Source of the DNA: Kluyvera intermedia
GTDB taxonomy: Bacteria; Pseudomonadota; Gammaproteobacteria; Enterobacterales; Enterobacteriaceae
DNA length: 54,045 bases
Direction: 5' to 3'
NCBI RefSeq assembly: GCF_021440345.1
Contig: NZ_JAKCNS010000066.1
Span: 1 to 54,045, forward strand
Shown here: piece by piece, positions 826-47,555 of the stretch
Numbering within the stretch: the stretch's first letter is position 1
How the letters are laid out: every line of letters starts with the position of its first letter
The notes under the pieces: model-generated
Database searches by the model: none
What the model was told of the DNA's origin: nothing
Seen by the model: the letters and a program-made list of their open reading frames with translations, nothing else
Position numbers and translations under genes: made by a program

Positions 826-1533
826 ATGGATCTCACGACATGGCAGCAACACATTGAGTTGTGGTTTGAACAACATTATGACGGCGGCGATGCTTCGCAT
901 GATATTGCCCATTTCCGCCGGGTATGGCGGTCCGCGCAGCAGATTGCCGATGGACAGTCGGTTTGTCTGACCGTCGTTCTCTTCGCCAGCTATTTTCACG
1001 ATTTGGTCAGTTTGCCGAAAAATCATCCTGACCGCGCCCGTTCTTCTCTCCTATCCGCCGAGCGGACGTTACAGATTTTATCGCGCGATTTCCCGCAGCT
1101 TCCTGCCGAACATCATGCCGCCATTGCCCATGCTATCGAAGCGCATAGCTTTAGCGCGCAAATTGCGCCGCAAACGCTAGAAGCCAAAATTGTGCAAGAT
1201 GCCGATCGCCTGGAGGCGCTGGGGGCGATAGGTCTGGCGCGCGTCTTTGCGGTCTCTGGTGCCATGAATACCGCGCTATTCAATGCCGATGACCCTTTTG
1301 CCGAGAGTCGCGCGCTGGATGATAAAGCTTACGCCCTTGATCATTTCCAGACTAAGTTACTGCGGCTGCCGGAAACCATGCAAACGGCAAAGGGTCGTGA
1401 AATAGCACAGCGTAACGCGGATTTTCTGGTGCACTTTATGGCCAAACTGGGTGCCGAATTGAGCGGAGACCCTGACTCGCTGAATGCCAATGTGCTCAGA
1501 CGATTCGCGGCGCAAGATCTGCCCAACTTATGA
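826..1533 (+). CDS. yedJ: YedJ, HD-domain phosphohydrolase
   Basis: A 235-residue soluble protein of the HD superfamily, matching E. coli YedJ. Metal-binding residues are visible as [12 protein letters not shown] (H near residue 27), SYFHDLVSL (the HD pair near 51-52) and the late aspartate in [12 protein letters not shown] (about 125). The family hydrolyses phosphate esters or nucleotides with a divalent metal; the substrate of YedJ is not known to me. It ends 43 bases before dcm on the same strand, so co-transcription is possible. Confidence 0.88.
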
Positions 1534-1576
1534 TAATCTCAGGCTTATTTTCCTTTTTCTGTATCTGGTCAATTTT

Positions 1577-2998
1577 ATGCAACAGCGAGTCTTAATAAAC
1601 GAGGTGGTGGCGAGCCCTGAACCGGATGCTCAGGCGCTGCTCCAGCATATTCTGGAAATTTACGATCTTAAGACCGTTGTCGCCGAGCTGATTGCTGTGG
1701 GGGAACAGCACTGGAGCCCGGCCATCATCAAACGCGTCGTCGCGTTATCGCGCGCCAACACTCGGTTGAGTGAAAATGAGTGTGCGCATCTGGCGGCGAT
1801 GCTGCCGAAACCACCGGCGCATCATCCGCATTATGCGTTTCGTTTTGTCGATCTCTTCGCTGGAATCGGTGGGATCCGCAGCGGTTTTGAAGCCATTGGT
1901 GGACAGTGTGTTTTTACCAGCGAGTGGAACAAACATGCGGTGCGGACCTATAAAGCCAACTGGTACTGCTGTCCGCAGGAACATCAATTTAATGCCGACA
2001 TTCGCGACGTCACGCTCAGCCACCATCCCGAAACCAGCGACAGTGAGGCCAGGGCGCATATTCTGCAGTCTATCCCCCAGCATGATGTCCTGCTGGCGGG
2101 TTTTCCCTGTCAGCCATTCTCGCTGGCGGGGGTATCGAAAAAGAACGCCATGGGACGGGCGCACGGGTTTGCCTGTGATACCCAGGGAACGTTGTTCTTT
2201 GACGTGGTGCGTATTATTGACGCTCGCAGGCCGCCTATCTTTGTGCTGGAAAACGTCAAAAACCTGAAGAGCCACGATAACGGGAAAACCTTCCGTGTCA
2301 TCATGCAGACTCTGGATGAGCTGGGTTATGAGGTGGCTGATGCGGCGGCAATGGGGGCTGACGATCCGAAAATTATTGATGGTCAGCATTTCCTGCCCCA
2401 GCACCGCGAACGTATTGTACTGGTGGGTTTTCGCCGGGATTTAGGGCTGCAAGAAGGGTTTACTCTGCGCGATATTCCCGCGCTATACCCGGAACATCGT
2501 CCTGGTTTTGCGGAATTACTGGAACCAACGGTCAATCCGAAATTTATCCTGACGCCGGTGCTATGGAAATATCTCTATCGCTATGCCCAAAAGCATCAGC
2601 AGAAGGGCAACGGTTTTGGCTATGGTCTGGTCGATCCTACGCGGGCAAACAGCGTCGCGCGTACGCTCTCAGCGCGTTATTACAAGGATGGTGCCGAGAT
2701 CCTCGTCGACAGAGGCTGGGATCGTTCGTTGGGCGAGAAAGACTTTGACGATCCACAAAACCAACTGCATCGCCCGCGTCGTCTGACGCCGCGTGAATGC
2801 GCGCGTCTGATGGGTTTTGAATCACCGCAGGGATACCGTTTCCGCATCCCGGTGTCCGATACGCAAGCCTATCGCCAGTTTGGCAATTCCGTTATCGTGC
2901 CGGTGTTTGCCGCCGTTGCTCGCCTGCTGGAATCGCGCATTTTGCAGGCCGTAGCGCTACGTGATGCGGACAAGAACGATGGCAGACGTTCACGATAA
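1577..2998 (+). CDS. dcm: Dcm DNA (cytosine-5)-methyltransferase
   Basis: Methylates the inner cytosine of CCWGG from S-adenosylmethionine. At 473 residues it matches the E. coli Dcm length (472) when the ATG at 1577 is used; an upstream in-frame ATG at 1484 would run back into yedJ and is rejected. Motif I is [14 protein letters not shown] (about 90-103), the catalytic loop is [11 protein letters not shown] with Cys178, the ENV motif is LENVKNL, and the late motif [10 protein letters not shown] is intact. The 3' end overlaps vsr by 20 bases in another frame, the standard dcm-vsr arrangement. No partner restriction enzyme is adjacent, as expected for an orphan enzyme. Confidence 0.97.
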
Positions 2999-3473
2999 GG
3001 CCACCCGCAGTAAGAATATGCGCGCGATTGGCGCGCAGAACACGGCTATTGAAAAACGGATGGCGGCTTTGCTGGATTCGCTTGATCTGCGCTGGTTAGC
3101 GCAGGACAGCAGTCTGCCGGGCCGCCCCGATTTTACCCTCAGTGACTACCGCTGCGTGGTCTTTACCCACGGCTGTTTCTGGCATCATCACGACTGTTAT
3201 CTGTTTAAAGTCCCTGCCACCCGAACTGAATTCTGGCTGCACAAAATTAACGGCAATGTTTTGCGCGATGCGCGCGATATGAGGCTGCTCAGTGAGCAGG
3301 GCTGGCGCGTACTGGTCGTGTGGGAATGCGCGTTACGGGGACGAATGAAGCTGAGTAACGCTGCGCTGTGTGAGCGTCTGGAGGAGTGGATCTGCGGCGG
3401 CGACGGCAGCGCGCAGATCGGCACTCAAGGGATTTCGCGTCTGACTTTTATTTCTGCGTCGGACACGCAATAG
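2979..3473 (+). CDS. vsr: Vsr very short patch mismatch endonuclease
   Basis: Nicks 5' of the T in T:G mismatches created by deamination of Dcm-methylated cytosine and so starts very short patch repair. It has 164 residues from the ATG at 2979, inside the dcm end; an ATG at 2961 is in frame but adds residues absent from the family. The catalytic aspartate is in GRPDF (D51), and [15 protein letters not shown] supplies the histidines and zinc ligands. The C-terminal tail (about ten residues after TQGISRL) is slightly longer than in E. coli and makes the gene overlap the 3' end of convergent yedA by 26 bases. Confidence 0.96.
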
Positions 3474-31904: not shown

Positions 31905-32361
31905 TTATTGCCTCGTACGATTTCTGCGCAATATGCGCGGTGCGGATTGTGAAAGCGGCGCAGTATACCACAAGCCTGAAGAAAAACAGGAGTGGCTGTT
32001 TTTTGCGCGCTGCTCAGATCTGATATTAATTATTATTTAACAGTGTATACACAGCAAGTTAGCGTTGAATTGTTTAATTCTGGTTCATGTGCCGTTAATT
32101 GTTGTTACATATTATGAGTCTTATTTATCAAATATACGATAAAACACCTGTTTACGCCGCTTAAGTCCGCCAGAGTGCTGAGTTATCCATCTTGCATCTT
32201 ATTGTTTTTTAGCACTTTCCAGAAGATGTACATGATTATTTCCAAAAACGAGATCGAAATCGAAGCCTTGGCATTTTTAGACTTTCACAGTTGATATAAA
32301 ACCCGGTAGTATGGGGGAATTAAGCAGTAGTAGCGTTATCCCTATTCTGGAGATTATTCCT
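31905..32361. promoter_or_regulatory. Long yecF / uvrY regulatory gap
   Basis: A 457-base AT-rich region without a supported gene. It must hold the yecF promoter and the uvrY promoters. A perfect palindrome GTGTATACAC at 32043-32052 is visible, and several AT-rich -10-like stretches (TTATTTATCAAATATACGAT near 32121). I see no LexA box of the form CTGT-N8-ACAG. Confidence 0.45.
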
Positions 32362-33018
32362 TTGATCAACGTTTTTCTTGTTGATGACCATGAACTGGTG
32401 CGCGCAGGGATACGACGCATTCTTGAAGATATAAAAGGTATTAGAGTCACCGGCGAAGCCAACTGTGGAGAAGATGCGGTGAAGTGGTGCCGTGCTAATC
32501 CGGTTGATGTTGTGCTTATGGATATGAACATGCCGGGGATCGGTGGCCTTGAAGCTACGCGTAAAATTGCGCGTTCTGCGGTCGATACCAAAGTCATTAT
32601 GTTAACCGTACATACGGAGAACCCACTGCCTGCGAAAGTCATGCAGGCGGGCGCAGCTGGCTATCTAAGCAAAGGTGCTGCGCCGCAAGAGATGGTTAAT
32701 GCTATTCGCTCGGTGTTCTCCGGTCAGCGTTATATTGCCTCGGATATCGCTCAGCAAATGGCATTGAGTCAGATTGAACCGGAAAAAACGGAATCGCCGT
32801 TTGCCAGTTTGTCTGAACGTGAATTGCAGATTATGCTGATGATCACCAAAGGTCAGAAGGTGAATGAGATCTCAGAGCAGTTAAGTCTGAGCCCTAAAAC
32901 GGTAAACAGTTACCGCTACCGGATGTTCAGTAAGCTGAATATCCATGGCGACGTTGAACTGACCCACCTGGCAATTCGCCATGGCCTGTGCAATGCGGAG
33001 TCGTTAGCAAGTCAGTGA
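32362..33018 (+). CDS. uvrY: UvrY, response regulator of the BarA system
   Basis: 218-residue regulator phosphorylated by BarA that activates csrB and csrC. The receiver has the acidic pocket D8/D9, phosphoacceptor Asp54 ([12 protein letters not shown]) and Lys104-region AAGYLSKGA. The C-terminal LuxR helix-turn-helix is [20 protein letters not shown]. It starts with TTG at 32362, as in E. coli, which gives the correct MINV N-terminus; the frame upstream is not conserved. Its stop overlaps the uvrC start (GTGA). Confidence 0.95.
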
Positions 33019-34847
33019 GTGATGTTTTTGATTCAAAAGCCTTTCTGAAAACTGTAACCAGCCAGCCCGGCGTTTATCGTATGTATGACGCCGGCGGTAC
33101 GGTTATTTATGTTGGTAAAGCCAAAGACCTTAAAAAGCGTCTTTCCAGCTATTTTCGTACCAACGTAGCCTCCCGTAAAACGGAAGCGCTCGTCGCCCAA
33201 ATTGCCCAGATTGATGTCACCGTTACCCATACTGAGACGGAAGCGCTGCTGCTTGAGCACAACTACATCAAGTTGTATCAACCGCGCTATAACGTACTGC
33301 TGCGGGATGACAAATCTTATCCTTTCATCTTTCTGAGCGCCGATACTCACCCACGCCTGGCGACCCATCGCGGCGCAAAGCATGCGAAAGGTGAATACTT
33401 CGGGCCGTTCCCCAATGGCTATGCTGTTCGCGAAACGTTGGCGCTGCTGCAAAAAATCTTCCCGATTCGTCAGTGCGAGAACAGCGTTTACCGCAATCGC
33501 TCGCGCCCCTGCCTGCAGTATCAAATTGGCCGCTGTCTGGGCCCCTGCGTGACGGGGTTGGTGAGCGAAGAAGAGTACGCGCAGCAGGTTGAGTACGTAC
33601 GCTTATTCCTTTCTGGCAAAGACGATCAGGTCCTCACGCAGCTTATTGCGCGGATGGAAAAAGCCAGCCAGGCGTTGGCTTTTGAAGAGGCGGCGCGCAT
33701 TCGCGACCAGATCCAGGCCGTACGCCGGGTGACTGAGAAACAGTTTGTGTCGAATAACGGCGACGATCTTGATGTTATCGGCGTTGCGTTTGAAGCGGGC
33801 ATGGCCTGCGTACATGTGCTGTTTATTCGTCAGGGCAAAGTGCTGGGTAGCCGCAGTTATTTCCCAAAAGTTCCAAACGATACCGAATTGGGCGAAGTGG
33901 TGGAGACGTTTGTCGGCCAGTTCTATTTCCAGGGCAGCCAAATGCGTACGCTGCCGGGTGAAATCTTGCTCGACTTCGCGCTAAAAGATAAAACGCTGCT
34001 CGCGGACTCCTTATCCGAGCTGGCCGGGCGGCGCATTCAGGTACAGACAAAACCGCGCGGCGACCGTGCGCGTTATCTGAAGCTAGCGCGCACCAATGCG
34101 GTCACGGCGCTGTCGACTAAACTGTCACAGCAGTCCACCGTGCATCAGCGTCTTCAGGCGCTGGCCGCAGAGCTGAAGCTGCCGGCCATTAAACGCATGG
34201 AGTGCTTCGATATCAGCCATACGATGGGCGAGCAGACCGTCGCCTCCTGCGTGGTATTTGATGCCAATGGTCCGCTGCGGGCGGAGTATCGCCGCTATAA
34301 TATTACCGGCATTACGCCAGGCGATGACTATGCTGCGATGAATCAGGTTTTGCGCCGCCGCTACGGTAAAGCCATTGATGAAAGCAAAATCCCCGATGTC
34401 ATTTTGATTGACGGCGGGAAAGGGCAACTGGGGCAGGCTAAGACAGTATTTGCCGAGCTGGACGTGCCGTGGGATAAACACCATCCTCTGCTCCTTGGCG
34501 TCGCTAAAGGCAGCGATCGTAAAGCCGGGCTGGAGACACTATTCTTTGAGCCGGAAGGTGAGGGGTTTAGTTTGCCACCGGACTCACCCGCGCTGCATGT
34601 GATTCAGCACATTCGCGATGAATCGCACGATCATGCCATTTCTGGCCATCGTAAGAAACGGGCGAAGGTGAAGAGCACCAGTACGCTGGAGACGATTGAA
34701 GGGGTGGGGCCGAAACGGCGTCAGATGTTGCTCAAATATATGGGCGGTTTGCAGGGTTTGCAGCAGGCAACCATCGATGACATCGCGAAAGTGCCCGGAA
34801 TATCGCTTGGGTTAGCAGAAAAGATCTTCTACTCGTTGAAACATTAG
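33015..34847 (+). CDS. uvrC: UvrC, excinuclease ABC subunit C
   Basis: 610-residue endonuclease that makes both incisions in nucleotide excision repair with UvrB. The GIY-YIG domain is at 15-95 ([20 protein letters not shown]), a Cys cluster is [13 protein letters not shown], and the UVR motif is [16 protein letters not shown]. The RNase-H-like nuclease is [12 protein letters not shown] onward, and tandem helix-hairpin-helix repeats end at SLKH. The GTG start at 33015 overlaps the uvrY stop by four bases and gives exactly the E. coli length. Confidence 0.97.
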
Positions 34848-34902
34848 GGGCTCTGTAGCAACATAGGGCTAATATTTACTAACAACAGATAGTTACCACG
34901 CC

Positions 34903-35451
34903 ATGCAATATAATATCCCTACATTGCTTACGTTGTTCCGCGTCATCCTGATACCGTTTTTCGTGCTGGCGTTCTACCTTCCCGTTGTCTGGTCACCGTT
35001 TGCCTGCGCGCTGATCTTCTTTATTGCCGCGATAACCGACTGGTTTGATGGTTATCTGGCCCGTCGCTGGAACCAAAGCACCCGGTTTGGCGCATTCCTC
35101 GATCCGGTTGCGGATAAAGTGATGGTGGCCATCGCGATGGTGCTGGTGGCTGAGCACTACCACACCTGGTGGGTAACATTGCCTGCTGCCACCATGATTG
35201 CTCGCGAAATTATTATCTCTGCGCTGCGCGAGTGGATGGCGGAGCTGGGTAAACGCAGCAGCGTTGCCGTATCGTGGGTGGGTAAGGTAAAAACCACCGC
35301 GCAGATGACTGCACTGGTCTGGATGCTGTGGCGGCCAAATATGTGGGTTGAGTGGGCAGGAATTGCGTTATTCCTGGTCGCAGCGGTACTGACACTATGG
35401 TCAATGCTGCAATATTTGAACGCTGCACGCGGCGATTTGCTTCAAGAGTGA
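34903..35451 (+). CDS. pgsA: PgsA, phosphatidylglycerophosphate synthase
   Basis: 182-residue inner-membrane enzyme that transfers phosphatidyl from CDP-diacylglycerol to glycerol-3-phosphate, the committed step to phosphatidylglycerol and cardiolipin. The CDP-alcohol phosphotransferase signature with its four aspartates and the AR pair is at about 46-70 ([11 protein letters not shown] ... [10 protein letters not shown]). Several hydrophobic helices flank it. 55 bases after uvrC; essential in E. coli. Confidence 0.96.
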
Positions 35452-35501
35452 TCGTTTCGCCGTTATTTTCAGCAAACGACACCAAGTTGCGAAAAATACC
35501 G

Positions 35502-35529
35502 TTGACTCACCGCGCCAGATAAGTAGAAT
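35502..35529 (+). promoter_or_regulatory. Promoter of the glyW-cysT-leuZ tRNA operon
   Basis: TTGACT at 35502-35507 and TAGAAT at 35524-35529 with a 16-base spacer, followed by a GC-containing discriminator (GCAACGC), as expected for a stable-RNA promoter under stringent control. Confidence 0.85.
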
Positions 35530-35602
35530 GCAACGCATCGAACGGCAGCACTGATTGCCAGACGATAGCAAAATCAAGTGGTTAGCAAATCAACTTGATA
35601 AT

Positions 35603-35678
<76 letters not shown>

Positions 35679-35721
35679 AATTAAAAGCATCGGCAGTTGC
35701 GGATGTTATTAAAGCTTCAAA

Positions 35722-35795
35722 GGCGCGTTAGCAAAGCGGTTATGTAGCGGATTGCAAATCCGTCTAGTCCGGTTCGACTCCGGAACGCGCCTCCA
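35722..35795 (+). tRNA. cysT: tRNA-Cys(GCA)
   Basis: 74-nt cloverleaf with acceptor GGCGCGT / ACGCGCC, anticodon GCA in GATTGCAAATC, T-arm CCGGTTCGACTCCGG and encoded CCA. Confidence 0.98.
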
Positions 35796-35807
35796 CTTTC
35801 TTCCCGA

Positions 35808-35894
35808 GCCCGGATGGTGGAATCGGTAGACACAAGGGATTTAAAATCCCTCGGCGTTCGCGCTGTGTGGGTTCAAGTCCCACTCCGGGTACCA
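35808..35894 (+). tRNA. leuZ: tRNA-Leu(TAA)
   Basis: 87-nt class II tRNA with a long variable arm (CTCGGCGTTCGCGCTGTG region), anticodon TAA within GGATTTAAAATCC, and encoded CCA. Its 3' part from 35839 is the left copy of the island's direct repeat; the gene is intact, so insertion reconstituted it. Confidence 0.98.
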
Positions 35895-35965
35895 TGGGAA
35901 AGCCAAGAATAATCAAAGCAATAAGCAGTGTCGTGAAACCACCTACGGGTGGTTTTTTTGTTTTT
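35839..35965 (+). repeat. attL: left 127-bp direct repeat (leuZ 3' end plus terminator)
   Basis: Identical to 46038-46164 except for two adjacent bases (CC at 35903-35904, TA in the other copy). It starts in the leuZ anticodon stem, includes the rest of the tRNA and the following terminator hairpin, and ends at the T run. This is the signature of site-specific insertion at a tRNA 3' end. The distance between copies is 10,199 bp. Confidence 0.93.
35936..35959 (+). terminator. tRNA operon terminator
   Basis: AAACCACC-TACG-GGTGGTTT followed by more T: intrinsic terminator of the tRNA operon, carried within the attL repeat and duplicated in attR. Confidence 0.92.
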
Positions 35966-35974
35966 ATGGCTCCT

Positions 35975-35996
35975 TTCCTAACATCATTCCTAACAT
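35975..35996 (+). repeat. Tandem TTCCTAACAT pair just inside attL
   Basis: Two perfect TTCCTAACAT copies (35975-35984 and 35987-35996), 12 bases apart, ten bases from the inner edge of attL. Their position suits arm-type or accessory binding sites of a recombinase, but this is inference. Confidence 0.45.
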
Positions 35997-36005
35997 GATC
36001 GGCGT

Positions 36006-36260
36006 TTAAGCCTGTTTTTGGTTGTGTACTTCCCATCGTGAAATGCCTGCGGCATAGCAAAAATCAGCCAGAAAATTCAGCCCTGACCATTCCCGGATCC
36101 CTCCGCGAACCTTCTCCACATAAATTGCCGTCTCGCCGTCTCGGTGCAAACCGAATAGCTTCCATTGAGCATCCTGGGTTTTTATCGCGACTACGCGAGT
36201 AATCAGCTCTGACTCGTAAAGCCCGATAAAATTTTGTCTCGGCCTGGTTGTGACTCTCAT
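36006..36260 (-). CDS. Small uncharacterised island protein
   Basis: 84 residues, not recognised. The sequence is charged with an alternating beta-like pattern (ELITRVVAIKTQDAQWKLFG, ETAIYVEKVRGGIREWSGLN) and no membrane segment. The start at 36260 is the only good ATG after the paired palindromes. It is transcribed away from the defence operon, and the operator-like palindromes lie 22-58 bases before its ATG. It could be an autoregulator, a recombination accessory factor or a leftover of the mobile element. It lacks integrase motifs. Confidence 0.55.
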   Translation of the reverse strand: MRVTTRPRQNFIGLYESELITRVVAIKTQDAQWKLFGLHRDGETAIYVEKVRGGIREWSGLNFLADFCYAAGISRWEVHNQKQA

Positions 36261-36281
36261 TCTTCATTTCCCACAAAAGAA

Positions 36282-36318
36282 CAAACCTTAGGTATGCAGT
36301 TAGCAAACCTAAGGTTTG
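36282..36318. promoter_or_regulatory. Two 15-bp palindromic operator-like sites
   Basis: CAAACCT-A-AGGTTTG at 36304-36318 is a perfect palindrome; CAAACCT-T-AGGTATG at 36282-36296 matches it with one broken pair. Centres (36289 and 36311) are 22 bp apart, two helical turns, so two dimers could bind the same DNA face. They sit between the small minus-strand gene and the sigma-factor operon. Confidence 0.6.
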
Positions 36319-36515
36319 GACTGCATGTGTTGTCAGCAAATGCTTTAACAGGTCCTTCAGCTCAGCAAAAGCTCGATTTTTTCATCAAAGCCCAATTGGC
36401 GATGAAGATCACCAAAAATGATATGTTGCTTATATATACAGTACCAAATTCGATTTTCTCCCTATAAGATAGATCGCATTTCCGCGAGTGTGGTTTACAA
36501 GGAAAAGCTGTCAGC
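36319..36515 (+). other. Upstream region of the defence operon
   Basis: About 200 bases with AT-rich promoter-like sequence (TTATATATA near 36430, TATAAGAT at 36463-36470), but no -10/-35 pair at normal spacing that I would call. AAGGA at 36500 lies 11-12 bases before the ATG of the sigma gene, a long but usable spacing. Confidence 0.4.
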
Positions 36516-38573
36516 ATGCATCGCTCTGTTTCTAAGTTTTATCGCATCCCCCCTTTACTTATTCGGGCGCTAAAAAGCGGGGTCGCCTCCGTGGTGGAGT
36601 TTCATCTCAGCAGGGGATTGCCGAAAGATTCACGAGATTCTCTGGGAAATAGCACATTGATGATTGCGGCCCAGAATGGGCATTTCGCTATTTGCGAAAT
36701 GTTGTTGTGTGCGGGTGTCGATGTTGAACATCAAAACAACCTCGGGTTTCGCGCCAGTGACCTCGCGCAGGAGCAAACGCTGCGTGATCTGTTAGCTCGT
36801 TATCGGCAATCTCCTCCGCCTGACGGGCAGCAACTAGCAGGGGAGCTAGATGATGAGGCAAACGTTGAGCTTGTAATTGAAGCCGATGTCGAAACAGAAC
36901 CTCCCGAAACCGAAGACGCAATGGATTTTATGCAGTGGGATGCTGAAATCGAATCGGAACCCGCCGAAGATAATCTGACATTACGACACGCTTCCGCTGA
37001 GGCTCAGCAATTATTATCCCGCTATCGCCCGATAGATAACGCTGCTGAGTGGATCGATATCGAACTCTCCCTTCCTGACCCGCCGACGCCAGTTTCTCAC
37101 TCTCCGCAAAATTATCCCCATTTCTCAACGTTGCTCACTAGCGCACTGGATGCCGGTCGTGTCTCTGTTCGTGACATCCGGTCTGCCGGGGAAGATGATT
37201 TCGGCATGCCGTGGCCTGAATTCCGGCTCAGCGTAGAGGCATTGATCAAGGACCTACCTTTGATTGTGGATGGTGATGATGCTTTCCCGGAAAGTGATGC
37301 CTGTGGGGAATTAGCGGCGAGTGATGATCTCGAGCCCTGGTTTGACGCTTTCGGTGCATTGCGGCAGTCCGGCGTCTTTGAACGTTATCTCGTGGACATT
37401 CGCCAATGGGATGTCGTCGATAAAACAAAGGAAGAGCGACTCGGGCAGCGCATGGATACGGCGCTTATCAACTTGATGACGATCCTGGCGAGATTACCCG
37501 AAGCAGAATATCTACAGTTGCTGCATCCGAATTGCCTTCCCGCGACATCGCCTGAGATTACTGAAGAGGATGACGACGCGGAAGAAGCGGATGAGGAAAT
37601 CTCTTCCGCAGCCGATGACGATGACGATGACGCCATCACCTTTAACGATCTGCTCATTCTGCTGAGAAGTGGGAAAGCTGAAGAGTACCAGGATAATCAT
37701 ATCCCTCGCCCGGAGTACCGTGACCTGCAGCAGATAGTCGAGCGCGCCCAAACGCTCATCCCTGATGAATGCCATAATGTCAGTCTGTATGTCAGTAGTT
37801 ACAGAGACGCATGGGAGGGGTTAATCCACGCCAATTTACGTCTTGTGGTCGCGATTGCGAAAAAACACTGCGGGCGAGGATTAGATATCGAGGATCTGAT
37901 CCAGGAAGGTAATCTGGGCTTGATCAAAGCCGTTGAAAAATTCGACTATCGGCGTGGATTCAAATTCTCTACCTATGCCTCCTGGTGGATCCGCCAGAAG
38001 ATCAGCCGCGCAATTGCCGATCAGGTTCAGCTCATTCGTTTACCCGTTCACTTCTATGAGCAATTCAGGCGCTGGCGGAGCAGTCTGGATCAGTTGCTGC
38101 ATCGCCAGGGGATAACGCCCACCCTCAGACGGTTGCAGGAAATGACCGACCTGCCAGAGCGTCAACTTCTTCAGATGGCTAAATATGAAGAACAGACGGT
38201 GCTGATTGGTGATTTTCATGAAGACGCTCAGGACCGCGAAGCAGCATTGTCGGGAGACGCGCTGCTGACCAGAAGGGATTTCACCAGTGCTCCCGTTCAG
38301 TCTCTGGAGCTAAGAGAACATATTTCATCGGTCCTGAATACGCTGTTGCCACGCGAAACACAGATCATAAAAATGCGTTTTGGCATCGGTATGACGCAAG
38401 ATTTCACGCTGGAAGAGGTGGGTAAACAGTTTGATGTCACGCGAGAAAGGATACGTCAGATAGAAGCCAAAGCGCTCCGTAAGCTCCGTCATCACAGCCG
38501 GGCGTCGAAATTAGGCGGCTTCGTCGAACAGTGGGAAACCACGTTGAGCGAGATGCAGGAAGAAGAAGAATGA
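36516..38573 (+). CDS. Ankyrin-repeat / sigma-70 fusion protein, first gene of the defence operon
   Basis: 685 residues. Residues 10-95 are ankyrin-like ([20 protein letters not shown], then a second partial repeat). An acidic linker (110-160) follows, then a helical region resembling sigma region 1.1 (200-255), a second acidic stretch (349-372, mostly D/E) and full sigma-70 regions 2 to 4. Region 2 (437-512) has [20 protein letters not shown]; region 4.2 (640-660) has [19 protein letters not shown], identical to E. coli RpoD as I recall it, including the -35-contacting Arg/Glu residues. Region 3 and the finger are diverged. It should bind core RNA polymerase and read near-standard promoters. 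The stop overlaps the next start by four bases. Its role in the system is not established. Confidence 0.9.
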
Positions 38574-40072
38574 CGACCATGCGCCATGCGCCACCGAATG
38601 CAGCCATTATGATCGAAGCTCTGCGAGGGCTCGGCTACAACACCGCCACCGCACTGGCTGATATCATCGACAACAGCATCAGTGCTGGTGCTCGTAAGGT
38701 CGATCTGGCTTTTCACTGGCGTGAGTCGGATAGCTATATTGTGGTTCGGGATAATGGTTGCGGCATGTCGGCCGCTGAACTGGATGTTGCGATGCGGCTG
38801 GGGGTCAAAAACCCGCTGACAAAGCGTCCAGGACACGATCTGGGCCGCTTCGGTCTTGGACTCAAAACCGCCTCCTTTTCGCAATGTCGTCGCCTGACGG
38901 TCTCCTCTAAAAAAGAGGGGATAACGACCATCCTGCGGTGGGATCTGGACATTCTCGCCGCCAGTACGGACGACGGTTGGTATTTGCTTGAAGGTGCTGA
39001 CCCAGGGAGTCAGGAGGCGTTAGCAAATGCGGAACCTGACTCCCACGGTACGGTGGTGCTGTGGGACGTTTTAGACCGAATTGTCACCCCCGGCTACGGT
39101 GAGAAAGATTTCCTCAATCTGATGGATGGCGTTGAACAACATCTGGCGATGGTATTTCACCGATTCCTTGAGGGGAACGCTACCCGACTCACTCTCACTC
39201 TCAATGGTCGCAAAATTAAAGCCTGGGATCCCTTTCTCAGCGGGCATCCTTCCAAGCCCTGGCATTCGCCTTCGGCAATGGCGCCAGGCGCTCCTGCCGT
39301 GAAGGTGGAGTGTCATGTTCTGCCGCATCAGGATCACCTGACGACGCAGGAGTATCAACAGGCTCAAGGACCGGCAGGCTGGACGGCTCAGCAAGGATTT
39401 TATGTATACCGGAATGAGCGATTGCTGGTGGCGGGCAACTGGCTTGGACTTGGAAATCCCCGGGCCTGGACGAAAGATGAAACCCACCGCCTTGCGCGGA
39501 TCCGTCTGGATATCCCTAATGATGCCGACATAGACTGGAAGATTGATATTCGTAAATCGATGGCGCGCCCTCCGGTTTCGCTGCGTCCCTGGTTAACTCA
39601 ACTGGCGCAATCAACACGCGATCGTGCGGTAAGGACATTTGCCAAACGCGGTAAAATGAATAAGCGCAAGCCCGGCGAGAAACTCGTTCATCTCTGGCAG
39701 GCGCAGAAGACGTCATCAGGTGTTCGTTACCAGATTTCGTTACAACATCCTGTCATCAGCAATGTCCTTTCGCAGGCTGGTGAGTTATCCCCACAAATTC
39801 AGGCCATGCTAAGACTGATTGAGGAAACCGTTCCGGTTCAGCAAATCTGGCTTGATACGGCTGAGACAAAAGAGACGCCGCGGACAGGCTTTGAAACCGC
39901 GCCGCCCGCAGAGGTGTTATCCGTATTGCAGGTCATGTACCAGACCCTGGTTGGTCAGCAGGCGATGTCACCGGCGCTGGCGAAACAGCATCTGCAAAAT
40001 TTGGAACCTTTCGATAATTATCCCGAATTAATTGCACAACTCCCCGACGATCAACAAGAGAAATCGCTATGA
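38570..40072 (+). CDS. GHKL ATPase of the MORC/MutL type
   Basis: 500 residues; the ATG at 38570 overlaps the sigma gene stop (ATGA). The N-terminal GHKL (HATPase_c) domain shows motif N as [13 protein letters not shown] (31-42), motif G1 as RDNGCGM (60-66) and the lid [16 protein letters not shown] (91-106), followed by an S5-like domain with [10 protein letters not shown]. The position of the usual catalytic Glu is Asp31. Such ATPases dimerise on ATP and clamp DNA. In predicted MORC restriction-like systems they accompany helicases and nucleases, exactly as here. The C-terminal 100 residues are not recognised. Confidence 0.9.
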
Positions 40073-42927
40073 GTCTGAATCCCTTGGATGACACGCAACT
40101 GAGTGTATTGCAGATTGTACAAACGCTCCTGCAAGGCCAGGATAAAAGCACGATCACCCCTGGCATTCTGCGCCAACATATTGACATGGTTTGTCAGATG
40201 AAACCGGAGTGGAGCCGCCTTGATAACCGGGATATTCTGGTCGAAGAGTTGATCCGCCGTTATAGCATCTGGATGGGCGAAGATACTTCTCTGAGTAATG
40301 ATGAAGGACATCAACCTTGGCTGACCGCAGATGCGAAACGCGAGTGGCGCTACTGGCATCGATATCGCCAATGGCTTGGTAAAACGATGCCCTGGGGAGT
40401 CCTGGATACCCTTGACCGTTCAACGGATCGTGTTCTGGGATTACTTGAGCAGCCAGGGCGGGAAGGGCGCTGGGACCGGCGTGGTCTGGTGGTCGGCCAT
40501 GTTCAGTCGGGGAAAACCAGTCACTATACCGGTCTAATCTGTAAAGCCGCGGATGCGGGATATAAGATAATCATTGTGCTTGCGGGTTTGCATAATAACC
40601 TCCGCTCGCAGACCCAAATGCGTCTGGATGAAGGATTTCTTGGCTACGAGACGAGTCCACTCAGAGAAAAAGTGACCATCATTGGGGTGGGCGATATTGA
40701 TAGCGATCCCGTAATTCGTCCCAATTACGTCACCAACCGATCTGAAAAGGGCGACTTCAGTGCCGGAGTGGCTAAGAATCTGGGAATCAGCCCCGAGCAA
40801 CGGCCCTGGCTGTTCGTGGTAAAGAAAAATAAATCTATTCTGAAACGCCTGCATACCTGGATTGAGAACCATGTTGCCACCAGTGTTGACCCCGTCACCG
40901 GAAAGCGTTTTGTTTCGGAATTACCGCTGCTAATGATTGATGATGAAGCGGATAATGCCTCAGTTGATACGGGGGAAATCGTCTACGATGACGATGGAAA
41001 ACCGGATGCTGAACATCAGCCAACGGCAATCAATAGCCTGATTCGTAAGCTTTTGATGCAGTTCAGCCGTAAGGCGTATGTCGGCTATACTGCCACTCCC
41101 TTTGCCAATATTTTTATTCACGAGAGCAATGAAACGCGTGATGAAGGCCCGGATTTATTCCCTTCCGCCTTTATCATTAACCTCGGCGCACCTTCTAATT
41201 ACATTGGCCCGGCGAGGGTATTTGGTCGGGCCGCCTCGGAAGGGCGGAACGGTGAACTGCCTTTGATCAGGCGGGTGAGCGATCATTGCAGCGATGACGG
41301 AAAAAGAGGGTGGATGCCGGTTTCTCATAAGAGCTCGCACTATCCCACGCTCGATACGCTAACCCATTTCCCGGACTCGTTAAAACACGCCATCGATAGC
41401 TTTTTGCTGGCGTGCTGTGTCAGAGAATTACGCGGTCAGGGAGATAAACACAGTTCGATGCTGGTCCATGTGACCCGCTTCAATAAAGTGCAATCGGTCG
41501 TTTATGAGCATATTGACGCCTACATTCAGGACGTGAGACAGCGACTGATGCGAAGGATTGGACACGAGCCTTTTTTACATCAGCTTGAATCACTCTGGCA
41601 GGCCGACTTTTTGCCGACTGGTGAGACGATTCGCGACGTCATGCCGCAGCAGATTCCGGACGACGCCTTTGCGTGGCGGGAGATCGTCGACAAGCTGTAT
41701 ACCGTGATCGAAAACGTGTCGGTACGAATGATAAACGGAACGGCGAAGGATGCGCTTGATTATTCGGACAGTGCGGCAGGCTTAAAAGTCATTGCGATTG
41801 GCGGAGACAAACTGGCTCGAGGGCTAACGCTTGAGGGATTATGCACCAGTTATTTCTTACGCGCCTCCCGCATGTATGACACGTTAATGCAGATGGGGCG
41901 CTGGTTTGGCTATCGACAGGGATATCTGGATGTATGTCGGCTGTATACCACCGATGAGCTGATTGAATGGTTTGAGCACATTGCGGATGCCTCAGAAGAG
42001 CTGCGGGAAGAGTTTGACAATATGGTCGCCAGCGGCGGAACCCCGCGTGATTTCGGGCTAAAAGTGAAATCACACCCCGTGTTAATGGTGACATCCCCCT
42101 TAAAAATGCGTAGCGCGCGCTCACTATGGCTCTCTTTCAGTGGCACGGTGGTCGAAACGATTTCGTTGTTTAAAGAACCGGAGTACCACAAGCGTAACTA
42201 CTCGGCCTTCCAGCATCTGACCGGGCGTGTCGGTTCTGGCGCGCCGATCCCTGAGAGACGGCGCGCAGAGAAGATTGAAAAATGGAAAGGGGTCATTTGG
42301 CAAAACGTCTCTCCCGAGCCGATCATTGATTTCTTAACGGAATATGAAACCCACGCTCAGGCCAGGAAAGCCAACAGCAAACTGCTGGCGGATTTCATTA
42401 CGCGGATGAATCGTGTTGATGAACTCACCCAATGGACGGTGGCGGTGATAGGGGGGGGCGTCGAGCGTCATCATGCTGTCTGTGGCTTCCCCGTCCCGCT
42501 TATGATGCGTAAAGCGTCTGAGGGGGTCACTGACCGCTATTCTATTGGCCGTTTACTTTCCCCACGCGATGAAGGGATTGACTGCGATGAATCGACCTGG
42601 CTTGCCGCGTTGGCCGAAACGCAGCGTATTTTTCATGCCGATCCCGGACGCAATGAAGGGCGAGAGGAGCCCGTCATTCCTGGTGGCGTAGTACTGCGTC
42701 GGATCAAAGGATTTGGCATAAACGACATCCCGGCACAGCGTCAAAAAGGGCTACTGCTCATTTACTTACTGGACCCGCAACAGGCGTTGTCGGCAGCGGA
42801 ATATCAGGACGATGCCTTGCCGGTGGTGGCTTTTGGCATCAGTTTTCCGGGAAGCCGCAGTGGGGTAACGGTGGAGTACAAAGTGAACAACGTACTGTGG
42901 GAGCAAGAGTATGGTGCGGCTGAGTAA
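40069..42927 (+). CDS. Z1-domain superfamily II helicase-like protein
   Basis: 952 residues, starting with a four-base overlap with the ATPase gene. Walker A is VVGHVQSGKTSHYTG (141-155), Walker B is LLMIDDEADNAS (287-298), motif III is GYTATPFANIF (339-349), and a late arginine-finger region is LMQMGRWFGYRQGY. This is the Z1 domain found in DNA-methylation-linked and MORC defence operons; it should translocate on DNA using ATP. A G8 tract at 42451-42458 encodes part of codons 795-797; loss or gain of one G would truncate the last ~150 residues. The end overlaps the nuclease gene by 17 bases. Confidence 0.92.
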   Translation: MSLNPLDDTQLSVLQIVQTLLQGQDKSTITPGILRQHIDMVCQMKPEWSRLDNRDILVEELIRRYSIWMGEDTSLSNDEGHQPWLTADAKREWRYWHRYRQWLGKTMPWGVLDTLDRSTDRVLGLLEQPGREGRWDRRGLVVGHVQSGKTSHYTGLICKAADAGYKIIIVLAGLHNNLRSQTQMRLDEGFLGYETSPLREKVTIIGVGDIDSDPVIRPNYVTNRSEKGDFSAGVAKNLGISPEQRPWLFVVKKNKSILKRLHTWIENHVATSVDPVTGKRFVSELPLLMIDDEADNASVDTGEIVYDDDGKPDAEHQPTAINSLIRKLLMQFSRKAYVGYTATPFANIFIHESNETRDEGPDLFPSAFIINLGAPSNYIGPARVFGRAASEGRNGELPLIRRVSDHCSDDGKRGWMPVSHKSSHYPTLDTLTHFPDSLKHAIDSFLLACCVRELRGQGDKHSSMLVHVTRFNKVQSVVYEHIDAYIQDVRQRLMRRIGHEPFLHQLESLWQADFLPTGETIRDVMPQQIPDDAFAWREIVDKLYTVIENVSVRMINGTAKDALDYSDSAAGLKVIAIGGDKLARGLTLEGLCTSYFLRASRMYDTLMQMGRWFGYRQGYLDVCRLYTTDELIEWFEHIADASEELREEFDNMVASGGTPRDFGLKVKSHPVLMVTSPLKMRSARSLWLSFSGTVVETISLFKEPEYHKRNYSAFQHLTGRVGSGAPIPERRRAEKIEKWKGVIWQNVSPEPIIDFLTEYETHAQARKANSKLLADFITRMNRVDELTQWTVAVIGGGVERHHAVCGFPVPLMMRKASEGVTDRYSIGRLLSPRDEGIDCDESTWLAALAETQRIFHADPGRNEGREEPVIPGGVVLRRIKGFGINDIPAQRQKGLLLIYLLDPQQALSAAEYQDDALPVVAFGISFPGSRSGVTVEYKVNNVLWEQEYGAAE

Positions 42928-43939
42928 AGATGATCTGCTGGCGGCCTGGAAAGCCTTAGATCGATCTCAGATAGACGAACAGCCCGGCGCTCAGGGCTGG
43001 CGCGGGATTCGGCTTTTTAAGCACCAGGGTTGTAGCTTTCATGCCGGGCGTCGTCAGCCTGATAATGAAGAAATGCTGATTGCCGTGTTTCCTCATCCTC
43101 TTTCGCCGGGGTCGACGGCGCTGCCGTCCTGTAAAGGATTTCGCGTTGAGATGACCGGAACAGAGGAGGGGCGGCAGAACGGTTTGATGATCCGTCGTCA
43201 GCAAACGGGGAATGCGGATGTCTTTACGACGATGATTCTGGATATTCTCCATTCGCTCCTGAACGTTTCTGAACCGCGTCTGTTTGAAACCCTGCTCCGT
43301 CGGATTCGTTTATGGCAGGCGTTTATGGAGCGCGATACCCGTCCACTCAGTCATGAAGAAGAAGTGGGGTTAATCGGGGAATTGACGTGTCTGGAGCGGT
43401 TAATCGAGAGCGGTCTTGCGCCGTCAACGGCAGTCGAAGCATGGGTAGGACCGCAGCATGGCCTACAGGATTTTGAACTCGATGAACGCGCCATTGAGGT
43501 AAAAAGCACCACAGCAGAGCAGGGCTTTTGCGTAACCATCCACGCGCTTGAACAACTGGACTGGCAGCGGCTTGGCTCGCTCATGTTGTGCGGTTTGCGC
43601 TTCAGCGAGCATCCCACCGGCGCGACCCTGAATGACCTCATTTTCCGTTTTCGTCAGCGGTTTGAGGGAAACGCTCTGGCGGCCTGTCTTTTTGAGGGAT
43701 CGCTTTGTCACGTCGGATATTTCACTGAACATGCTGAATTCTATACACGTCATTTCTTGCTGACAGAGGCGTTTGCACTTCCGATTGAAGCGGATTTTCC
43801 CTCTTTGACGCATGCCAATGTCCCGTTGCCGGTGGTGAGTGCGTGCTATCAACTCGAACTCCAGACACTTATTCCTCAGGCTCAAAATTTTAACCATTGC
43901 TTATCAGACTTTGCAGGATTACCGCATGGAACTTATTGA
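42911..43939 (+). CDS. PD-(D/E)XK nuclease, DUF4420-like
   Basis: 342 residues; it starts inside the Z1 gene end (17-base overlap). A PD-(D/E)XK core is visible: a conserved Glu in VGLIGELTCLERL (E157), Asp187 in GLQDFELDERA, and Glu196-x-Lys198 in AIEVKSTTAE. The family (DUF4420, PD-(D/E)XK motif protein) is usually beside Z1 and MORC genes and is the likely DNA-cutting subunit. The flanking N-terminal part (RLFKHQGCSFHAGRR) and the C-terminal third have no motif I know. All active-site residues appear intact. Confidence 0.88.
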   Translation: MVRLSKDDLLAAWKALDRSQIDEQPGAQGWRGIRLFKHQGCSFHAGRRQPDNEEMLIAVFPHPLSPGSTALPSCKGFRVEMTGTEEGRQNGLMIRRQQTGNADVFTTMILDILHSLLNVSEPRLFETLLRRIRLWQAFMERDTRPLSHEEEVGLIGELTCLERLIESGLAPSTAVEAWVGPQHGLQDFELDERAIEVKSTTAEQGFCVTIHALEQLDWQRLGSLMLCGLRFSEHPTGATLNDLIFRFRQRFEGNALAACLFEGSLCHVGYFTEHAEFYTRHFLLTEAFALPIEADFPSLTHANVPLPVVSACYQLELQTLIPQAQNFNHCLSDFAGLPHGTY

Positions 43940-45722
43940 TTTTTTACGTCAAACGCAGAATGAGATTCGCAAGGAATATCAGGATCAAATGGCTCAGCCT
44001 GGGGTTGAGTCGCCTTTTCCGGAACTGATTTTTACCGATATTGTTATGCGTCATATGGCCGATATCGGCATGACATTCGATGATGCCGAGACGTGTCACT
44101 TTATGGCGAAAGTCAGTGGACACAATGTGCGTCTCAGCGGTTATGCCTTCTCAGAAGATGGCGATCAACTTGACCTTTTTGTCAGCATTTATCACGGTAG
44201 CGACGAGCTTTGTCACGTCCCGGATGCTGAGACAAAAGCGATTGCCGGTCACTGCATTCAATTTTTGCAGAAGTGCGTTGACGGTAAATTATCATCCACG
44301 CTCGATCAGTCCAATGATGCCTGGCAACTGGTGACGACCATCGAACAGTCATACACGGAACTGGAGCAAATCAGAATTTATGTTCTGACCGATGGTCAGG
44401 TGAAAACCCGCTGGTATCAGTCCCGCGATGTGGCCGGTAAAACCATTAAATTAGAGGTTATGGACATTGTCCGCCTGTTTAATCACTGGCAGGAAGGTAA
44501 GCCACGCGACGAACTGCAGGTTAATTTTGATGAGGTGGGGGGGGGCGCACTCCCCTGTGTCTGGATCCCGGATGAAATGGGTGAATATGATTATGCACTG
44601 ACGGTGGTTCCGGGCGAGACGCTGCGATTTATCTATGAAAAATATGGCAACCGGATTCTGGAAGCGAACGTTCGCTCATTTCTGAGCCAGACGGGGAAAG
44701 TCAACAAAGGGATTCGTGACACTTTACGCGAGCAGCCTGAGCGTTTTATGGCTTATAACAACGGCATTGTGATTGTTGCCGATCAGGTCAGGCTTGGCGA
44801 AGCGCCGGGAGGTGGTCCTGGTATTGCGTGGATGCAGGGGATGCAGATTGTCAACGGTGGGCAGACGACGGCTTCTATGTTTTTCACCAAAAAGAAATTC
44901 CCGGCAACCAATCTGCGTAACGTGCGTGTACCCGCAAAAGTCATTGTGCTGAAACAGACGAATAATGCACAAGAAGAGATGCTAATTGCGGATATTTCGC
45001 GCTTCTCGAATAGCCAGAATAAAGTCAATATTTCCGATCTGTCAGCCAATCGACCGGTACATGTACAGCTGGAAAAAATGGCAAACACGGTGTATTGCCC
45101 GGACGGATACAGCCGTTGGTTTTACGAGCGAGCGAACGGCAGTTATAAGGTTATGCTGGAACGGGAAGGTAAAACACCCGCTGGAATCAAACGGTTAAAA
45201 GACGCGATTCCTGCCTCTCGCCGGATAACGAAAACAGATTTCGCAAAATATCATTGTGCCTGGCTCCAGCGTCCGGATTTAGTCAGCCTCGGCGGACAGA
45301 AGAACTTTGCCGCATTAATGTCGATGATCGACAAGGATACTGAGCGTTATGGGGATGAGCTGAACATTGAGAGTTTTAAAAATTACATCGCGCAGGCCAT
45401 TATTTATAAGAAAGCCTATAAGTTGATTAATTCACTTTTCCCCGCATTTAAGGCGAATATTGCCGCCTATACCGTGGCCGCCTATTCACATCTTTATGGC
45501 AACCAAACGGATCTGGCAGAGATCTGGAATCAACAGGGCATTGAGGAAACGATGGGCAACCGCCTTGTCAGCTTAGCCCATCGGGTGAATAGTCTTCTGA
45601 ACGAATCCGCGAATGGCAGGATGATTTCAGAGTGGGCGAAGAAGCCTGAATGCTGGGAGTATGTGCGCAGCAAAATCTATTTCTCCGCACATGGAAAAAT
45701 GGAAGACCACATGAGTAGTTAA
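43926..45722 (+). CDS. AIPR-family (abortive-infection phage-resistance) protein
   Basis: 598 residues from the ATG at 43926, 14 bases before the nuclease stop; the frame extends to 43839 but that part overlaps the nuclease coding region. The AIPR domain spans about 230-480, with ANVRSFLSQTGKVNKGIRDT, RFMAYNNGIVIVAD and QIVNGGQTTASMFF. The N-terminal part (DGDQLDLFVSIYHG) may be a separate module. A G9 tract at 44537-44545 lies in codons 204-207. Loss of one G gives a stop at 44599 and gain of one at 44573, removing almost two thirds of the protein. Last gene of the operon, followed by a terminator. Confidence 0.9.
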   Translation: MELIDFLRQTQNEIRKEYQDQMAQPGVESPFPELIFTDIVMRHMADIGMTFDDAETCHFMAKVSGHNVRLSGYAFSEDGDQLDLFVSIYHGSDELCHVPDAETKAIAGHCIQFLQKCVDGKLSSTLDQSNDAWQLVTTIEQSYTELEQIRIYVLTDGQVKTRWYQSRDVAGKTIKLEVMDIVRLFNHWQEGKPRDELQVNFDEVGGGALPCVWIPDEMGEYDYALTVVPGETLRFIYEKYGNRILEANVRSFLSQTGKVNKGIRDTLREQPERFMAYNNGIVIVADQVRLGEAPGGGPGIAWMQGMQIVNGGQTTASMFFTKKKFPATNLRNVRVPAKVIVLKQTNNAQEEMLIADISRFSNSQNKVNISDLSANRPVHVQLEKMANTVYCPDGYSRWFYERANGSYKVMLEREGKTPAGIKRLKDAIPASRRITKTDFAKYHCAWLQRPDLVSLGGQKNFAALMSMIDKDTERYGDELNIESFKNYIAQAIIYKKAYKLINSLFPAFKANIAAYTVAAYSHLYGNQTDLAEIWNQQGIEETMGNRLVSLAHRVNSLLNESANGRMISEWAKKPECWEYVRSKIYFSAHGKMEDHMSS

Positions 45723-45745
45723 ATTGTCCACTGAGTTCATGATCG

Positions 45746-45788
45746 AAGCCCCGCGTGTGTGTTATGGGTTGCTCGTAGCGGGGCTTTG
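45746..45788 (+). terminator. Defence operon terminator
   Basis: Inverted repeat AAGCCCCGC / GCGGGGCTT with a 23-base loop, 24 bases after the AIPR stop. The right arm runs into the IS903-like end sequence, so the terminator may have been partly created by that insertion. Confidence 0.6.
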
Positions 45789-45850
45789 TTGAATAAACCG
45801 AACTTTTTCTTAGTTGAAGACTTAGATTACACATCATCTTACAACGCCGG
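45782..45850 (+). mobile_element. Decayed IS903-like left end
   Basis: Begins GGCTTTGTTGAATAAA, the IS903 (IS5 family) terminal inverted repeat with one change in its last two bases, and continues CGAACTTTT...AGTTGAAG...AGAT...CATC...CAACGC as in the IS903 left end. By eye, about 80 % of ~68 bases match the IS903 sequence as I remember it. No transposase frame and no right inverted repeat are present, so this is a solo remnant. Confidence 0.7.
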
Positions 45851-46037
45851 TAGCCCCATGGCGCTTCACATCATCATTCTTTAAAATATTCTCAGGCAGA
45901 AAACTCTTCTCCTGTGCTTCTTCTGTGCTCAACGTTATCCAAGTCTATTTATTTACTGCCAATTACAGTAAAATGAGTAAACAATTACAGCAAAGTTTCG
46001 CAATGCACTGCTATGTAACTCATTGATCCTGCGTAGA
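45851..46037. other. AT-rich right end of the island with AATTACAG repeats
   Basis: Nothing coding is seen. Two AATTACAG copies (45961-45968 and 45983-45990), 22 bp apart, lie 48-77 bases inside attR and could be protein-binding sites for excision or integration. No integrase, excisionase or relaxase remnant is visible. Confidence 0.4.
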
Positions 46038-46164
46038 ATTTAAAATCCCTCGGCGTTCGCGCTGTGTGGGTTCAAGTCCCACTCCGGGTACCATGGGAAA
46101 GTAAAGAATAATCAAAGCAATAAGCAGTGTCGTGAAACCACCTACGGGTGGTTTTTTTGTTTTT
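46038..46164 (+). repeat. attR: right 127-bp direct repeat
   Basis: Second copy of the leuZ 3' end and terminator, with TA at 46102-46103 in place of CC. It lacks the 5' half of the tRNA and so is a pseudo-tRNA fragment. It marks the right boundary of the island; sequence from 46165 onward should be the original leuZ flank. Confidence 0.93.
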
Positions 46165-46349: not shown

Positions 46350-47555
46350 CTAATTTTTTGCGAAACGGTTGCCAGAGATATGGCGATCGTTTTTTGCCAT
46401 ATCCATCAATAGCATCATGCCAATATAATTGCTCCAGTTAAAAGCATTTTGCAGCACCACGACCGCATTGCCTTTTTGTTTATCAAAACCGATAAAGCTG
46501 GAGTAGCCGCCAATATAGCCTACTTGATAAGTGATTTTTTCCCGACCGATAAAATCGGTTACCCAGGCAAGATCCTGTGAACCTTCGGGGCGTTGAAAAT
46601 AGATATTGCTGACTTCGGAAAACACCACATCCAGTACGCTGTCGTCGGTTTTTGACACGTGATAACGGGCGTAGGCGATTAAATCTTCGGCGTTACTGTA
46701 CAAACTCGCCGCCGCCACCATGTTATTGGTGAAATGCCAATCGGGAGTTAACTGCCCGCGCGGGATGAATTTGGGCTGGTCGCCTGCGTGACCAAGCGCT
46801 CGCTGCGGGAAACCTTGCAATTCCTGGGGAATAAAGCTGCTGTTAGCCATTTTTAGTGGTCGAAAAATAAAGTGCGACGCTAAAGTCTGTATATCTTCGC
46901 CAGTTTTATATTTTAGAATGTAACCGATAAGTGCATAGCCGAGATTGGAGTATTCCGGTGTTTTACTTTTTGGCGCTCGCCAGTCGGCTAAATAACGCAA
47001 CACGTTATTGCTATCCAGTTCGCCATAAAAATTTTCACCACTCCCTAAATAGCCGATGAATTTTTCCAGCATCTGAATATCCATATTCTGACGCGGCAGA
47101 CCGGAGGTGTGAGTGACCAGCTCCAGCAAAGTAATATTTTGTGCATCCATACTGAGCGGCGTGCCTGGCGGTAACAGGGTCGCCAGTTTGTCATCCCAAC
47201 TGAGTTGTCCTTCATTCACCAGGCACGCCACCACTTCTGCCGTTACCCCCTTGCTGAGAGAGCCGAGGGCAAATAGGGTATCTGGCTTGACAGGGTAGCG
47301 ATGGACTGCATCGGTTACCCCCCAGCTGTAAAACTGCGGCTCACCGTGATTGTGGATCACAGCGACGGTCATCCCTGAGACGCTTTTTTGCGTCATATAG
47401 TGACGTACCAGGCTATCAACGTCGCCATCCAGCGATTGATGAGTGAGGAGTTCCTGAGTACCTGCCGGGGAGGACATTTGGGAGAGCGTGCCGCAGCCGC
47501 TGAGTAGCGGGATAACAAACAGCATCCATTGAAATCGGGTAGTAATGTTCTGCAT
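46350..47555 (-). CDS. Beta-lactamase-fold serine hydrolase lipoprotein
   Basis: 401 residues. A lipoprotein signal (MLFVIPLLSGC, Cys21) leads to a class C / penicillin-binding-protein-like domain with the nucleophile motif Ser99-x-x-Lys102 (ALGSLSKG) and Tyr202-Ser203-Asn204 (PEYSNLGY). The usual HTG/KTG third motif is replaced by VGYIGGYSSF near residue 345, so it is probably an esterase or peptidase-like member, not a true resistance beta-lactamase. Residue +2 is Gly, consistent with outer-membrane sorting. It lies alone between the island and the liv operon; function unknown. Confidence 0.85.
   Translation of the reverse strand: MQNITTRFQWMLFVIPLLSGCGTLSQMSSPAGTQELLTHQSLDGDVDSLVRHYMTQKSVSGMTVAVIHNHGEPQFYSWGVTDAVHRYPVKPDTLFALGSLSKGVTAEVVACLVNEGQLSWDDKLATLLPPGTPLSMDAQNITLLELVTHTSGLPRQNMDIQMLEKFIGYLGSGENFYGELDSNNVLRYLADWRAPKSKTPEYSNLGYALIGYILKYKTGEDIQTLASHFIFRPLKMANSSFIPQELQGFPQRALGHAGDQPKFIPRGQLTPDWHFTNNMVAAASLYSNAEDLIAYARYHVSKTDDSVLDVVFSEVSNIYFQRPEGSQDLAWVTDFIGREKITYQVGYIGGYSSFIGFDKQKGNAVVVLQNAFNWSNYIGMMLLMDMAKNDRHISGNRFAKN

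Follow-up and report, generated by a model that had tools for sequence, protein, structure and literature searches.

A predicted mzaABCDE anti-phage system, headed by a sigma-70-like gene, in the leuZ island of Kluyvera intermedia

Introduction

The five-gene MZA system (mzaABCDE) is an anti-phage system reportedly discovered experimentally by Gao et al. in 2020. Here we analyse a 54,045-nucleotide stretch of Kluyvera intermedia DNA (contig NZ_JAKCNS010000066.1; hereafter the window), in which an island at a tRNA-Leu gene carries an operon of five overlapping genes. Comparison with family models indicates that this operon is very probably a complete, already known MZA system. All five genes are present in the reference order, on one strand and with full-length proteins. 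Nothing essential differs from MZA; what the window adds is a further enterobacterial genus and a minimal island too small to hold an integrase gene.

In the portion of a gene-language study available to us (PMC9523054), mzaABCDE is described as validated and mzaA is named a sigma factor. A Type II system described there has three core genes; one of them encodes a PD-(D/E)XK nuclease and another a cytosine methyltransferase. It shares with the window AIPR and an association with a MORC protein, and a few examples contain mzaA. Its identity to mzaBCDE is about 20% according to that paper, and its methyltransferase is a core component, unlike in the window. The MORC-type restriction-modification operons of Iyer et al. 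2008 (PMC2292703) also combine a MORC-like GHKL ATPase with a superfamily II (SFII) helicase, whose DThhQXuRhFG motif corresponds to DTLMQMGRWFG in the window. Both have a nuclease of the restriction endonuclease fold with an E-D-ExK signature, and AIPR is named in an operon figure legend of that paper. Unlike these operons, as far as the text available to us describes them, the window has no linked methylase; figures aside, the main text of that paper mentions neither 'sigma factor' nor 'ankyrin'. The ATP-dependent restriction systems CglI and NgoAVII, in the part of PMC4267653 available, consist of three genes with a PLD-B3 nuclease and have no GHKL ATPase, AIPR protein or sigma subunit. A Pfam comparison of the five mza proteins shows no PLD-B3 restriction subunit domain, which places the operon outside that group.

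Results and Discussion

The leuZ operon as an MZA system

The identification rests on the NCBIfam equivalog cut-offs for MzaA to MzaE, with which it stands or falls and which all five proteins pass, and on the PADLOC models, which all five match over their whole length. The genes follow one another in the order A-B-C-D-E on the plus strand, overlapping, in an arrangement identical to that of E. coli. mzaA (36516..38573), encoding ankyrin repeats and sigma-70 regions 2 and 4, scores 824.7 bits with NF041931 (cut-off 800), and residues 1-685 of its product align to positions 1-683 of the PADLOC profile. It is followed by mzaB (38570..40072; NF041932, 893.1 against 850), which encodes a MutL/MORC-like GHKL ATPase, and by mzaC (40069..42927; NF041933, 1533 against 1500). 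mzaD (42911..43939; NF041934, 458.1 against 420) encodes a PD-(D/E)XK nuclease (DUF4420), and mzaE (43926..45722; NF041935, 1123.6 against 1050) an AIPR protein with a predicted N-terminal restriction-endonuclease-like fold. An earlier sequence-only reading of this DNA had described a leuZ island with five overlapping genes, and the tRNA-Leu(TAA) gene, the direct repeats and the gene coordinates bear it out. It had also placed the ankyrin-sigma-70 gene outside any characterised system. This was a false lead, because the gene is mzaA of a named system; the operon and its likeness to MORC-type restriction stand, whereas the novelty of the sigma gene does not.

Scanning genome contigs with MzaC confirmed at least 578 related loci (numbered with the prefix L), of which the best 80 were retained. 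With our own iterated profiles, all five genes were found together in 66 of the 80, and an mzaA-like frame was found in 68. Six of the 12 remaining loci (L021, L058, L066, L069, L078 and L080) have fewer than 650 bases upstream of mzaB and are not counted as lacking mzaA. The genomes of the other six contain no match reaching the MzaA cut-off; their best matches, of at most 473 bits, are those expected of RpoD and its kin. Five of these six form a single, fully supported Pseudomonadaceae clade nested among mzaA loci in a tree made with a quick method. In these loci mzaA is thus almost always present, though it can be lost. Of 398 genomes in a wider sample of the phylum, 25 contain some MzaC relative, the only one over the cut-off being that of the window's genome. 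In a Bacteroidota locus where no mzaA was detected, a gene for a TerB-domain protein (L092:1989-3290) lies ahead of mzaB.

Motifs of the predicted effectors are strongly conserved. The GHKL motif residues of MzaB (77 aligned rows), the GHVQSGKT, DDExD and DTLMQMGRWFG motifs of MzaC (81 rows) and residues E157, D187, E196 and K198 of MzaD (79 rows) are each conserved in at least 97% of the rows. Residues 1-190 of MzaE adopt a restriction-endonuclease-like fold in an AlphaFold2 model. Four betaproteobacterial loci have, after mzaE, a second AIPR-like frame that is longer (883-975 aa; L017:15625-18345, L020:15455-18298, L023:15400-18324 and L035:14472-17120; confirmed by Pfam in L023).

MzaA retains most of the residues that read promoters

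Profile searches of the individual proteins, a check proposed by the sequence-only reading, detect regions 2 and 4 of the sigma-70 superfamily in MzaA (PF04542, 1e-23; PF04545, 3e-18), and the promoter-reading residues are present, apart from W433 and T440 in many relatives. Four residues that read the -35 element are conserved in 70 of 70 MzaA proteins and four residues of the -10 region in 68-69 of the 70, a set that takes in the alphaproteobacterial branch (L071-L091). In contrast, most of the MzaA sequence drifts, as seen in an alignment of the window with 45 of the 68 MzaA loci that leaves out most of that branch. MzaA was also compared with the group 1 sigma factor RpoD and rejected as such, both models scoring below cut-off (NF004208, 292.3 against 555; TIGR02393, 254.7 against 354). 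GcrA-like helix-turn-helix copies are found around the sigma part of three MzaA proteins from Alphaproteobacteria, one in L071:5962-8475 and three each in L082:5155-8475 and L091:5182-8475.

These data sharpen the question of why a phage-defence operon retains a sigma factor whose -35-reading residues are invariant in 70 sequences amid a protein that mostly drifts. Our literature searches found no paper explaining the MZA mechanism. We infer that MzaB to MzaE would form an ATP-driven, restriction-like nuclease complex, and we tentatively favour a role for MzaA in directing this complex to promoters or to RNA polymerase.

MzaA could also be only the sigma factor or autoregulator of the operon, turning on mza (or a host stress regulon) upon infection while remaining outside the nuclease complex. 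Its promoter-reading and core-binding residues are largely intact and mzaA is the first gene of the operon. In addition, genes for WYL-type regulators lie upstream of mzaA in 12 of the 80 loci (in L082 by Pfam; in L018, L027, L049, L055, L065, L071, L072, L073, L075, L077 and L091 by similarity to the L082 gene), suggesting that control of the operon is under selection. However, MzaA would read the housekeeping type of promoter, which is ill-suited to specific control, and the 4-base overlap between mzaA and mzaB implies that MzaA is produced in step with the effectors. A simple scan of the plus strand at 35900-36700, which proves little, showed no sigma-70-like site. We regard this role as possible but doubtful.

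A decoy role, in which MzaA would be a guard copy of the host sigma-70 and its binding by phage anti-sigma or polymerase-takeover proteins would trigger the effectors, could be suspected from the window itself. Here MzaA does not differ from the RpoD of its own host anywhere in the -35 recognition helix or the residues around it (TLEEVG to RKLRH). Yet MzaA does not track its own host's RpoD in a comparison over 30 hosts (29 of 30 selected host genomes were searched, L048 being left out). Identity to the own and to other hosts' RpoD was 0.563 and 0.564 in region 2, and 0.540 and 0.529 in region 4. Within classes, the own RpoD exceeded the mean of the others in 17 of 30 cases for region 4, in 6 of 30 for region 2 (12 below, the rest equal) and in 20 of 30 for region 3, with a mean gain of just 0.006. 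Host mimicry is therefore unsupported, and conservation of MzaA is centred on DNA-reading residues; a decoy role appears very improbable.

Several observations weigh against a promoter-directed nuclease complex. Some sigma contacts of MzaA vary, with W433 found in 48, T440 in 29, E407 in 49 and N409 in 45 of the 70 proteins (in the window, position 433 is W and position 440 is S). A simple transcriptional regulator would be expected to show the sigma-type conservation of MzaA just as much. The modelled fold of MzaE is a modest structural match, with no evident catalytic lysine after D83. The Pseudomonadaceae clade (L022, L029, L030, L033 and L034) has mzaBCDE without mzaA, so that the sigma factor seems dispensable to some versions of MZA; in its place, directly upstream of mzaB, these loci carry a C5 cytosine methyltransferase gene (found by Pfam in four loci and by phmmer in L033). 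Finally, with no methyltransferase in the window's island, classical restriction-modification is not demonstrated.

Association with C5 methyltransferases

For the main count of methyltransferases, we used the 50 of the 80 loci that are flanked on each side by 4 kb or more. A C5 methyltransferase gene lies within 4 kb of the operon in 42 of the 50 and within 1.2 kb in 37. Position and strand differ among these genes, which are placed downstream on the minus strand in 20 cases, upstream on the plus strand in 16, downstream on the plus strand in 5 and upstream on the minus strand in 2. In two further loci such a gene lies 4.2 or 4.7 kb away, and these are the only two in 295,051 flank bases beyond 4 kb (516,159 bases were searched within 4 kb). 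No C5 methyltransferase was found in the DNA examined in L016, L017, L044, L064, L068 and L086. In a second sample, 10 genomes are listed with both an MzaC relative, mostly a distant one, and a C5 methyltransferase; this sample may be selected, as genomes lacking a methyltransferase are not all listed. In eight of the ten, a single contig carries the two genes no more than 6 kb apart; the remaining two are the genome of the window and one further genome (G124), for which positions are not listed. The link between MZA and methyltransferases as such is not new, since the MORC restriction-modification operons of 2008 (PMC2292703) and the systems of PMC9523054, in the parts available, include a methyltransferase.

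The enteric copies that we inspected are without this gene: no C5 methyltransferase was found near MZA in the window, in two E. coli copies or in Enterobacter (L016), and Pfam detects no methylase domain in the five mza proteins or in the phage-type open reading frame of the island. The only PF00145 match of the window's genome is a dcm-like C5 cytosine methyltransferase gene outside the island (1484..2998, plus strand), followed by vsr (the pair at 1484-3473); it ends 32.8 kb before the island.

MZA might in essence be a C5-methylation-dependent restriction system with MzaA as an accessory, whose enteric copies have lost the methyltransferase and either use the resident Dcm or need none. The frequent linkage in both samples, the methyltransferase of the mzaA-less clade and the status of Dcm as the sole such enzyme of the window's genome are all in its favour. 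Moreover, all eight genomes whose MZA has no methyltransferase within 4 kb carry at least one (two of them at 4.2-4.7 kb). This last result is weak evidence, however, because 88 of 150 genomes of the phylum have a C5 methyltransferase anyway. When the window's Dcm was used to probe seven genomes in which a methyltransferase is linked to MZA, a close relative was found in only two, both alphaproteobacterial (56-60% identity), so the sequences do not support a lost Dcm-type partner in the nearest relatives. We consider a methylation-centred system unlikely. Why most relatives have a cytosine methyltransferase that the inspected enteric copies are without is now a sharper question; both this absence and the retained promoter reading of MzaA are worth testing, for which laboratory E. 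coli is suitable.

Distribution and transfer among enteric bacteria

Among 5426 complete E. coli genomes, 218 contain a near match to the mza cassette. In 55 of them the match covers at least 80% of the cassette and is always chromosomal; the 30 listed matches are about 98.5% identical to it. The remaining 163 cover less than 80%, mostly at 90-95% identity, and are not among the two matching genomes inspected in detail. The 9.8-kb cassette of the window is 98.5% identical to that of E. coli and 98.4% identical to that of Enterobacter sp. (L016), whereas identity to E. coli drops to 81% in the adjacent chromosomal DNA (32243-35961). This difference indicates that the cassette has moved recently between genera. 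Raw counts of codon differences between the window and an E. coli copy give 58 synonymous and 52 amino-acid-changing differences over the five genes, with 11 silent against 19 changing in mzaA and 3 against 9 in mzaD (no rate test being applied).

Both inspected E. coli copies end directly before yecA. Around one of them, the stretch examined takes in tRNA-Leu, the left repeat and a gene for an integrase. Upstream of the other lie a type I restriction system, further nuclease genes and a tyrosine recombinase, in a stretch that stops short of the tRNA end. An IS421-type transposase lies within the mza stretch of E. coli NZ_CP013662.1 (2273229-2284253).

The island and its boundaries

The integration target is a tRNA-Leu gene with anticodon TAA (35808..35894, plus strand), detected with ARAGORN in the same tRNA order as in E. 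coli, which we take to be leuZ from its E. coli position. The island is flanked by a pair of 127-bp direct repeats with 98% identity, resembling attL (35839..35965, plus strand) and attR (46038..46164, plus strand), the left one extending into the tRNA gene. An empty insertion site is present in one genome of the same genus. Outside the mza genes, the island comprises 550 bases at 35966-36515 and 315 bases at 45723-46037, too short for a full integrase gene to fit. The first of these contains an 84-aa phage-type open reading frame without assigned function (36006..36260, minus strand; PHROG 4595, 4.6e-34) and without a match in Pfam or NCBIfam, which is probably a remnant of the integrating mobile element. 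The island is adjoined by a gene of the beta-lactamase superfamily (46350-47555); with 106 bits for the best class C model, against a cut-off of 415, it probably encodes an esterase or peptidase.
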